Shown here: in pieces, positions 7,184-13,682 of the stretch
Layout of the letters: the number at the start of each line of letters is the position of its first letter
Position numbering within the stretch: the stretch's first letter is position 1
Position numbers and translations under genes: made by a program
Assembly (NCBI GenBank): GCA_001637315.1
Contig: LSZA01000001.1
Location: 1 to 64,000, forward strand
DNA length: 64,000 bases
Source: Phormidium willei BDU 130791
Lineage (GTDB): Bacteria; Cyanobacteriota; Cyanobacteriia; Cyanobacteriales; Geitlerinemataceae
Reading direction: 5' to 3'
Notes under the pieces: generated by a model
The model's database searches: none
Told to the model about the DNA's origin: nothing
What the model saw: only the letters and a program-made list of their open reading frames with translations

Positions 7184-8854
7184 ATGACAACCACTTCCGT
7201 TGAACCCAAAACCTCCCCACCCAATCCCGAACCCGAACGGCATTGGAAAGACTTTTTCGGCTTTAGTACCGATCACAAAGTCATCGGTATCCAATACTTC
7301 GTCACCAGTTTCTTCTTCTATCTCGTCGCCGGCTTAATGGCCACGAGTATCCGCATCGAACTGGCGACCCCCAATCCTGACTTCCTCGGGGCTGAGAACT
7401 ATAACGGCGTTCTCACTCTCCATGGAACCATGATGATTTTCCTCTGGATTGTGCCAACTGGGGCCGCTTTTGCCAACTACCTAATTCCCCTGATGATTGG
7501 AGCCAAGGACATGGCCTTTCCAGTCCTGAATGGCTTAGCCTTTTGGCTGGTTCCTCCTGGTGGCGTTCTCCTACTGACGAGTTTGATTATCCATGAGCCT
7601 CCCGTAGCCGGTTGGACTTCTTACCCTCCCCTGAGTCTGATTAGTGGTGAAGTCGGGGAGATGATGTGGATTCTCAGCATTCTTCTGTTGGGAACTTCCT
7701 CGATTTTGGGGGGAATTAACTTTGTCACCACCATCTTTAAGATGCGGATTAAGGAGATGTCACTCTATGACATGCCCTTGTTTTGCTGGTCGATGTTGGC
7801 GACATCTCTGCTCATTCTGGTCTCTACCCCCGTCCTGGCTGGGGCTTTAATTCTTCTTAGCTTCGACCTCCTCGCCGGTACGGCCTTTTTCAATCCCACC
7901 GGTGGTGGCGATCCGATTGTCTACCAGCATATGTTCTGGTTCTACTCCCACCCGGCGGTTTACATCATGATTCTGCCGGTCTTTGGCCTCATCTCTGATA
8001 TCCTGCCGGTTCACGCTCGCAAACCGATTTTTGGCTATAAAGCGATCGCCTACTCCAGTATCGCGATCGCCTTTCTCGGTAACATCGTTTGGGCGCACCA
8101 TATGTTTACCAGTGGAACCCCCGGCTGGTTGCGGGTGTTCTTTATGGCTGCAACCATGATTATTGCCGTTCCCACGGGAATTAAAGTCTTTAGTTGGGTC
8201 GCCACGGTTTGGGGGGGCAAACTTCGCCTCAACTCCGCGATGCTGTTTGCGATCGGCTTTGTCTCCATGTTCCTAATTGGTGGCTTAAGCGGCGTGATGG
8301 TCGCGTCGGTTCCCTTCGACATTCATGTTCACGATACCTATTTCATCGTCGCTCACTTCCACTATGTCCTCTTCGGCGGCAGCGTCTTTGGGATCTTCGC
8401 CGGAATTTACCACTGGTTCCCGAAAATGGTCGGGCGGATGATGAACGAAACCTGGGGCAAAGTTCACTTTGTCCTCACCTTCATCGGCTTCAACCTGGCA
8501 TTCTTCCCCATGCACATCTTAGGATTACAGGGAATGCCCCGCCGAGTGGTGCAATATGACCCCGCTTTCACCACCTTGAACCAGATTTGTACCGTGGGTT
8601 CCCTGATTTTGGCGGTGTCAACGTTGCCCTTTTTGGTCAATGCCGCTTGGAGTTGGTTCAAAGGCCCCGTTGCCAGTGCGAATCCTTGGAATGCTTTAAC
8701 CTTAGAGTGGCAAACCAGTTCTCCGCCGATTATTGAGAACTTCGAGGAAGAACCACTGTTGTGGTCGGGTCCTTATGATTATGGCGTCGATCGCGAACGG
8801 GATGATGATCGCTCGGTCTCTGAGTTACTCGCTGAAGTTAAGGCTCAGATGTAA
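7184..8854 (+). CDS. ctaD: Cytochrome c oxidase subunit I
   Basis: Catalytic subunit of the aa3-type oxidase that reduces O2 to water and pumps protons. 556 residues with about 12 membrane helices. The signature WFYSHPAVYIMILP holds the Tyr-His pair at CuB, HHMFTSG gives two further CuB histidines, and HDTYFIVAHFHYVLFGG gives the heme a3 and heme a axial histidines. The LHGTMMIFLW segment carries the other heme a ligand. Full length for the family, with a short charged C-terminal tail. Middle gene of ctaC-D-E. Confidence 0.97.
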   Translation: MTTTSVEPKTSPPNPEPERHWKDFFGFSTDHKVIGIQYFVTSFFFYLVAGLMATSIRIELATPNPDFLGAENYNGVLTLHGTMMIFLWIVPTGAAFANYLIPLMIGAKDMAFPVLNGLAFWLVPPGGVLLLTSLIIHEPPVAGWTSYPPLSLISGEVGEMMWILSILLLGTSSILGGINFVTTIFKMRIKEMSLYDMPLFCWSMLATSLLILVSTPVLAGALILLSFDLLAGTAFFNPTGGGDPIVYQHMFWFYSHPAVYIMILPVFGLISDILPVHARKPIFGYKAIAYSSIAIAFLGNIVWAHHMFTSGTPGWLRVFFMAATMIIAVPTGIKVFSWVATVWGGKLRLNSAMLFAIGFVSMFLIGGLSGVMVASVPFDIHVHDTYFIVAHFHYVLFGGSVFGIFAGIYHWFPKMVGRMMNETWGKVHFVLTFIGFNLAFFPMHILGLQGMPRRVVQYDPAFTTLNQICTVGSLILAVSTLPFLVNAAWSWFKGPVASANPWNALTLEWQTSSPPIIENFEEEPLLWSGPYDYGVDRERDDDRSVSELLAEVKAQM

Positions 8855-8863
8855 TTAACGTTC

Positions 8864-8933
8864 CCTGAATACCCCCAGAGACAGAATTAACTGTCAGATT
8901 CTTATTAGAAAGCTGTGATTGGGGGTATTCAGG
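8864..8933 (+). other. Structured element between ctaD and ctaE
   Basis: CCTGAATACCCCC (8864-8876) pairs perfectly over 13 bp with GGGGGTATTCAGG (8921-8933). Inside, GACAG-AATTAA-CTGTC (8880-8895) forms a hairpin, and TTCT-TATT-AGAA (about 8899-8910) can form another, giving a branched fold. No U-run follows, so it does not look like a simple terminator. It could be an RNA processing or stability element that adjusts ctaE relative to ctaD, or a small inserted palindromic element. No clear target duplication flanks it. Confidence 0.7.
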
Positions 8934-8998
8934 TCTTCAAGTTCTGGCACTTCAACATTGCCATTGCAACACCTGTCCCTAACCATTTGACTTAACTT

Positions 8999-9619
8999 AT
9001 GCAAGGTTCTACTGTCGATACCTCTCAAAATCCCCTAGCGACCGCATCTCATGCTGAAGCGGGACATCATGGAGAGCATCCGGATCATCGGATTTTTGGG
9101 CTTTATATGTTTCTGTTTGCTGAGGCGATGATTTTCCTCGGCTTGTTTGCGGCGTATCTCACGTTTCGCTCGGTGGCTCAGGTTTGGCCGCCTGAAGGAA
9201 CACCGGATTTAGAGTTGTTGTTACCTACGGTGAACACCGTTATTCTGGTGTCGAGTAGTTTTGTAATGAATCGTGGTAATCAGGCAATTCGCAACAATGA
9301 TGTGAAGGGGTTACGTACCTGGTTTGCCATTACGGCGGCCATGGGATTACTGTTTTTGTTTGGTCAAGGATACGAGTATTTTACGAATGAATTTGGCCTG
9401 ACCGATAATCTCTTTACTAGCACCTTTTATGTCCTGACTGGGTTTCACGGCTTACACGTCACCTTTGGTTTAGGCTTGATTTTGCTGGTTTTGGGGCGAT
9501 CGCTCAAGTCAGGTCGTTATACCAGTGACAGTCACTTTGGCCCCGAAGCAGCGGAACTCTATTGGCACTTTGTCGATATTGTTTGGATTGTCTTATTTGC
9601 CATTCTCTATCTGTTTTAG
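8999..9619 (+). CDS. ctaE: Cytochrome c oxidase subunit III
   Basis: 206 residues, the short five-helix form of subunit III. Motifs LFAEAMIFLGLFAAYLTFR, LTGFHGLHVTFGL and ELYWHFVDIVWIVLFAILYL are typical. It stabilises subunit I and its proton pathway and has no redox centre. The N-terminal 25 residues are His-rich (SHAEAGHHGEHPDH), common in cyanobacterial copies. Last gene of the ctaC-D-E unit; the terminator at 9653 follows within 35 bases. Confidence 0.95.
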   Translation: MQGSTVDTSQNPLATASHAEAGHHGEHPDHRIFGLYMFLFAEAMIFLGLFAAYLTFRSVAQVWPPEGTPDLELLLPTVNTVILVSSSFVMNRGNQAIRNNDVKGLRTWFAITAAMGLLFLFGQGYEYFTNEFGLTDNLFTSTFYVLTGFHGLHVTFGLGLILLVLGRSLKSGRYTSDSHFGPEAAELYWHFVDIVWIVLFAILYLF

Positions 9620-9652
9620 CGATTAACGCTGAACTTGACTGTAGCCACACAA

Positions 9653-9690
9653 AACCCCCTGAACTCATGAGAAGTTTAGGGGGTTTTTGT
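9653..9690. terminator. Bidirectional terminator between ctaE and rbcS
   Basis: AACCCCCTGAACT (9653-9665) pairs with AGTTTAGGGGGTT (9673-9685) with one G-T pair. A T-run follows on the plus strand and A residues precede it, giving a short T-run on the minus strand, so it suits both converging genes. Confidence 0.85.
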
Positions 9691-13546: not shown

Positions 13547-13682
13547 TGGGTTCTCACGGGTTATCAAACGTCGGGAATCGGCGAAGGACGATCCGGTGAA
13601 GAAACAGCCGTGCCGAGGAGTCTAGTTAAACCAGACCTGCGATCGCACGACTATTTCTCCACCCAATCACCGGCCATCTTCC

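Follow-up and report, generated by a model that had tools for sequence, protein, structure and literature searches.

Several described systems place stable RNA structures at the junctions between bacterial genes. In E. coli, RNA structures guide the differential decay of operons, mostly from within coding regions (PMC5927463, in excerpt). The element described here, a stem in the spacer between the cytochrome c oxidase genes ctaD and ctaE of a cyanobacterium, resembles them as a stable RNA structure at the border of two operon segments, for which protection of one segment is proposed, and in that structures persist among related species. The E. coli structures, for which decay was measured, are found chiefly inside coding regions, whereas the stem here is predicted, lies in a spacer and has a sequence that is not kept beyond the genus. 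In S. elongatus, hairpins between genes of the same operon, for example the phycocyanin operon, lower downstream transcripts (PMC3219970, in excerpt). These partial terminators share with our element the position between genes of one cyanobacterial operon; they were predicted from a hairpin with a T-rich tail and linked to lower downstream transcripts, whereas the outer stem at ctaD-ctaE has no U-run and is predicted from sequence. The stabilising REP elements of E. coli, named in PMC13289151, are likewise U-less palindromic stems that follow a gene and are thought to protect the RNA 3' end, but REPs are dispersed repeats, whereas the ctaD-ctaE element is single in its genome. The element is an intercistronic stem conserved by position, a kind already known; its unusual trait is that so little of the sequence has been preserved.

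Other reports bear on what such a stem might do. In S. elongatus, only 46% (75/163) of the U-less defined 3' ends are structured (PMC13289151, in excerpt), and in PCC 7002 hairpins without a U-tract go with shorter half-lives than hairpins with one (PMC7406221, in excerpt); both results count against, or are neutral to, the reading of the stem as a barrier that protects an RNA end. The main text of PMC13289151 contains no word beginning with cox or cta. In Acaryochloris, coxB is at least threefold above coxA and coxC, and this passage, the one expression statement found, places the drop after coxB (ctaC) and makes no comparison of coxA with coxC (PMC5295598). Our literature search, which had most subscription journals outside its reach, found no paper on this stem.

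The window, that is, the whole stretch of 64,000 nucleotides that was analysed, comes from a cyanobacterium; among the matches listed, the closest named locus is that of Geitlerinema sp. BBD 1991-9, with 83% identity in ctaE. Pfam assigns ctaC, ctaD and ctaE to COX2, COX1 and COX3, and the next genes after ctaE, on the opposite strand, to the RuBisCO small subunit, RbcX and the RuBisCO large subunit. The ctaD-ctaE spacer is 144 nt long and contains the element at 8864-8933; its sequence and coordinates had been given correctly by the sequence-only reading, and Pfam confirmed the flanking genes. The features of the locus are as follows.

7184..8854, plus strand: ctaD (cytochrome c oxidase subunit I), the upstream gene; Pfam COX1, E 1.3e-163.
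8864..8877, plus strand: 5' arm of the outer stem, CCTGAATACCCCCA; 14 perfect pairs with 8920-8933.
8880..8895, plus strand: first inner hairpin (5 pairs), predicted by both the minimum-energy fold and the centroid; accepted by a loose terminator scan, tail AGATTCTTAT.
8899..8910, plus strand: second inner hairpin (4 pairs), likewise predicted by both; the fold of congener G002 lacks it.
8920..8933, plus strand: 3' arm of the outer stem, TGGGGGTATTCAGG; pairs with 8864-8877.
8934..8998, plus strand: open ctaE leader; windows round the ctaE start have a positive mean z over 80 junctions.
8999..9619, plus strand: ctaE (cytochrome c oxidase subunit III), the downstream gene; Pfam COX3, E 1.9e-34.
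9651..9687, plus strand: terminator-like hairpin with a T-rich tail after ctaE, for comparison; 15 pairs, tail TGTCTTATAA.

Judging from gene order, the spacer would be transcribed, with read-through of the stem. An own promoter for ctaE was rejected, a sigma-70 consensus scan of the spacer having returned no promoter-like site. A small protein encoded in the spacer was likewise set aside: apart from a 41-aa plus-strand frame that overlaps ctaD at its end, the open reading frames there are confined to frames of 23 and 26 aa on the plus strand and a minus-strand frame of 44 aa that extends into ctaE. At 8990-9007 of the window, and at the same place in relatives, the sequence before the ctaE start is A/T-rich and shows no obvious Shine-Dalgarno consensus; the first ctaE codons, ATGCAAGGT, are well conserved across 76 junctions.

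The outer stem starts 9 nt past the ctaD stop codon, and 65 nt separate its end from the ctaE start. A perfect stem of 13 bp had been described from the sequence; the pairing is indeed perfect and its length is 14 pairs, one above that claim. The 70-mer folds at -31.6 kcal/mol, compared with -14.4 (sd 3.05) for shuffled sequences (z -5.6, 0/200 shuffles as good). When flanks are included (101 nt), z is -3.1 for the plus strand (1/200 shuffles as good) and -4.3 for the minus strand (0/200), the minus strand of the window's own element folding slightly better than the plus strand. The two hairpins drawn within the outer stem were recovered in the minimum-energy fold and in the centroid. The minimum-energy fold carrying both makes up 15% of the ensemble. 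The arms can alternatively be drawn as one 21-nt, 86% complementary imperfect pair, in which the 5' arm of the first inner hairpin also takes part. G002, the closest congener, has G-U in place of one G-C pair of the stem, and the interior of its minimum-energy fold is unbranched; the inner hairpins are not retained there. The branching is weakly supported, and the inner hairpins are the least secure part of the element.

The element possesses the stable hairpin of a canonical intrinsic terminator and lacks the U-tract: the outer stem is followed by TCTTCAAGTT, in agreement with the earlier statement that there is no U-run, and only the weak inner hairpin at 8880-8895 passes the loose scan. No Rfam family matched the window at the gathering score, so that a known RNA family was rejected and the description of the element as neither a plain terminator nor a known RNA family stands. 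A search of its genome (G000; 171 contigs, 91.7% complete) found no copy besides the element itself, which gave the one full match, the other matches being of 14-22 bases with E 1.27 or worse; a dispersed palindromic repeat (REP or MITE) in its own genome was rejected, and the suggestion of a small palindromic insertion found no support for this single copy, yet a dispersed palindrome adjoins the stem in G003 and a dispersed repeat forms it in G021. The placement is that of an intercistronic stabilising or processing stem, i.e., a stable stem within one operon, near the upstream stop codon and recurring in relatives, and its structure persists through sequence change, as seen in double-sided changes among congeners and in the surplus of structured spacers among relatives that cannot be aligned.

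The junction was obtained from six of the seven genomes belonging to the genus; in G006, the ctaD match stops at residue 516 of 556 and ctaE was not detected. In 6/6 congeners the stem has a C5/G5 core, beginning about 17-31 nt after the ctaD stop codon, and the loop is longer in the window and G002 than in the other four. The spacers have z values of -3.8 (window), -3.5 (G002), -2.7 (G001), -5.5 (G003), -2.4 (G004) and -1.45 (G005), the last alone not being significant (p 0.08). The sequences were placed by hand on the C5/G5 core, with one bulged 3'-side base allowed in G001, G003 and G005, and in this structure-based placement, which leans towards structure, three pairs changed on both sides: O1 (A-U or C-G), O2 (U-A or C-G) and I1 (A-U, U-A or G-U). 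Pair I2 changes on one side only, and pairing does not hold at O3 and O4 in G004, nor at I3 in the window and G002. Alignability of the spacer and compensatory changes in close relatives had been set beforehand as the test on which the claim would stand or fall, and the common core and the three pairs provide both.

The wider sample consisted of 84 loci, reduced to 80 distinct junctions by the removal of 4 duplicates. Among the 56 genomes with a ctaE match, G000 is that of the window and 51 are in the sample, with G011, G027, G042 and G053 outside the counts; 32 named loci (L038-L069), of at least 80, belong to the main sample, and L070-L117 were used only in the comparison with paralogous and non-cyanobacterial operons. 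Five ctaD-ctaE and 12 ctaC-ctaD spacers were too short or not found. Folding covered the first 200 nt of a spacer, with 100 dinucleotide shuffles per spacer and 60 per window in the position profile. Significant structure (p<=0.01) was detected in 48/75 ctaD-ctaE spacers (mean z -3.03) vs 19/68 ctaC-ctaD spacers (mean z -1.33), and in a pairwise comparison the ctaD-ctaE member showed the stronger structure in 49/66 (Wilcoxon p 6e-6). The same threshold was reached by 21/118 codirectional control spacers, drawn from 20 fetched 20-kb stretches and the window, a set that includes the window's own ctaC-ctaD and ctaD-ctaE spacers and in which any ORF of 100 aa or more (90 aa for the rbc and pet junctions considered below) was taken as a gene, in place of annotation. 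Outside the genus, the excess of structure comprises 43/69 ctaD-ctaE spacers. The p values overstate independence because the species are related. For the genomes outside the counts, z is -3.76 in G011 (p 0), -5.48 in G053 (p 0) and -0.88 in G042 (p 0.23), and G027 yielded no spacer; adding the four changes 48/75 to 50/78. The idea that Nostocales carry the stem after ctaC instead of ctaD was unsupported (5/13 vs 14/55, Fisher p 0.49), with Nostocales picked from record titles and every other genome counted among the others. Paralogous and non-cyanobacterial operons supplied six junctions, of which four could be folded, too few to judge: z was -0.31, -2.31 and -0.40 at the three paralogous cyanobacterial junctions and 0.07 at the one from Chloroflexi.

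The signal is concentrated in position and biased in strand. Its peak is the 60-nt segment counted from the ctaD stop codon (mean z -1.98, 47% of 80 junctions below -2); segments within ctaD have mean z values of -0.41 to +0.24, and those round the ctaE start are positive. The mRNA strand of the ctaD-ctaE spacers folds better than the complement by a mean of 2.53 kcal/mol (p 2e-4; z difference, p 0.0015). Neither the ctaC-ctaD spacers nor the control spacers share this bias, and after ctaE it is weaker (-1.29, p 0.025). The bias points to an RNA read in the direction of ctaD rather than to a DNA palindrome, although the window copy slightly favours the minus strand.

The data show a stable stem that recurs at one place, is biased towards the mRNA strand and is kept through sequence change within the genus. 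That many relatives carry a stem at the same spot with differing sequences suggests that structure rather than sequence is kept. The stem probably marks or protects the end of the upstream message. As the best reading, we infer that an intercistronic stem of the ctaCDE mRNA serves as a 3' barrier for the ctaC-ctaD segment, or else terminates leakily, and that selection is on where it lies and how stable it is. A block to 3'-5' exonucleases, or a processed end of the ctaCD segment formed by the stem, we consider a near-even prospect, falling slightly on the side of doubt. The ctaCDE message would first be cleaved in the spacer or within ctaE; 3'-5' exonucleases would then halt at the stem, such that the ctaC-ctaD segment survives with a 3' end of its own, and some leaky termination at the stem may contribute. 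The stem begins 9 nt past the ctaD stop codon and would leave the ctaE leader open. Selection would act on a stable stem at this place and not on its sequence, and therefore the sequence would turn over and dispersed repeats would supply the stem in some lineages. An effect on ctaE or on the ctaD/ctaE ratio would belong to the same model, and the setting of subunit ratios, proposed earlier from the sequence, is possible. Several observations count against the barrier: the minus strand folds slightly better in the window copy, the G005 spacer is not significant by itself, and the stem is not specific to this junction.

The alternative that fares best is a leaky intrinsic terminator, at which some polymerases would stop and thereby lower the transcription of ctaE relative to ctaCD. 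We consider it possible, albeit rather unlikely. Structure is about equally frequent in the ctaD-ctaE spacer and at the operon end, the first 60 nt falling below z -2 at 41/71 ctaD-ctaE junctions vs 40/79 stretches after ctaE. Most hairpins at the ctaE end are themselves without TTTT: among hairpins of -12 kcal/mol or lower, TTTT occurs within the next 10 nt in 3/61 after ctaD vs 7/72 after ctaE (p 0.34), and the absence of a U-run alone does not separate ctaD-ctaE from operon ends in these genomes. The inner hairpin that passes the loose scan, and the intra-operon terminators that lower downstream transcripts in S. elongatus (PMC3219970, in excerpt), are also in its favour. However, the outer stem has no U-run, the mean T content is lower after ctaD hairpins than after ctaE hairpins (p 0.011), and the scan returned 10 sites in 4.3 kb vs 4.8 expected, several of them in coding sequence. 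Moreover, the three oxidase subunits are expected in equal numbers, which argues against a lowering of ctaE.

The comparison was extended to junctions of the rbc and pet genes, whose upstream members (e.g., rbcL before rbcX) we take to be those of the usual gene order. With gaps of at least 60 nt, the first 60 nt fell below z -2 at 14/24 rbcL-rbcX junctions (L190-L219), 7/19 petC-petA junctions and 6/18 petB-petD junctions; the fraction was 7/13 after petA when a codirectional gene follows and 1/17 after petD. One-sided tests of ctaD-ctaE gave p 0.03 against petB-petD, 0.052 against petC-petA and 0.20 against rbcL-rbcX. The stem is not specific to ctaD-ctaE because rbcL-rbcX is alike and the ctaE ends are equally structured, and ctaD-ctaE as a unique junction was accordingly ruled out. 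The likeness to rbcL-rbcX, within the same genome group, is one of fold statistics, a structured first 60 nt past the upstream stop codon; the difference is that other genes are involved.

Elsewhere in the window, a very strong hairpin is found on the minus strand at 13568-13682 (-60.1 kcal/mol, z -6.1, 0/200 shuffles as good). It sits between a CcmM-like gene, with hexapeptide and RuBisCO small-chain repeats, and a following hexapeptide-like gene that falls below the Pfam cut-off and is perhaps ccmN. By its predicted fold and placement, this hairpin is another putative intercistronic stem in the window.

An insulating role, in which the stem would separate the folding of the ctaD end from that of the ctaE leader and hold the ctaE start open for ribosomes, appears unlikely. 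The stem lies immediately past the stop codon and the mean z round the ctaE start is positive, as such a role would have it, but open starts are common among genes, and in the window the stem ends 65 nt short of the ctaE start.

Sequence turnover at the junction involves repeats in part of the genomes. Matches elsewhere, meaning in any fetched locus and so not proof of a repeat within the same genome, were found for 27/76 spacers searched, many of them to short tandem or palindromic repeats. G003 has an extra perfect palindrome, GGGCGAAAAATTTTTCGCCC, directly past the ctaD stop codon and ahead of the stem; with at most 2 mismatches, it occurs at 35 places in G003 (for example, G003:C1:1211566-1211585), 17 in G000 and 8 in G021, against 0 in the backward control, and at none in G009 or G012. 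In G021 the stem arms consist of AGAAACCGGGTTTCT and its complement; this motif matches that genome 312 times in the forward and 324 times in the reverse direction, against 0 in the backward control, and among the listed places it often forms inverted pairs about 50 bases apart. The G009 motif is almost restricted to this junction: of its three places, two are within the ctaD-ctaE spacer of that genome. Recruitment of the stem from repeats thus happens in some cases, and in many it does not. Stems of the form AACCCCC..GGGGGTT were rejected as a repeat family; their loops vary, and they were counted against a backward control (places/control: G000 10/3, G002 8/3, G003 8/3, G001 4/6, G005 4/4).

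That the stem has no function, palindromes and repeats simply landing in spacers and being tolerated past stop codons, would account for these matches, for the G003 palindrome and for the G021 arm motif, but is improbable, given that the window copy is single in its genome, that structure is no less frequent in spacers lacking a match elsewhere than in those with one (p<=0.01 in 35/48 vs 13/27), that the ctaC-ctaD spacer, within the same operon, has less structure, and that mRNA-strand bias and double-sided changes are not expected of inert palindromes.

We propose, tentatively and at somewhat short of an even chance, a widespread control element of cyanobacterial cox operons whose only defining traits are position and stability: a U-less stem immediately past ctaD, its sequence repeatedly replaced, sometimes by any dispersed palindrome present in the genome, with structure being what is selected. 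Such an element would be invisible to sequence conservation and, beyond the genus, to covariation, and would be detectable by position. Cyanobacteria are without Rho, and according to a recent study known mechanisms explain few of their RNA ends (PMC13289151, in excerpt). A U-less stem that recurs at one operon junction would offer a defined place to test how U-less ends are formed, and the same junction would be a place to test whether dispersed palindromes are recruited as parts of RNAs.
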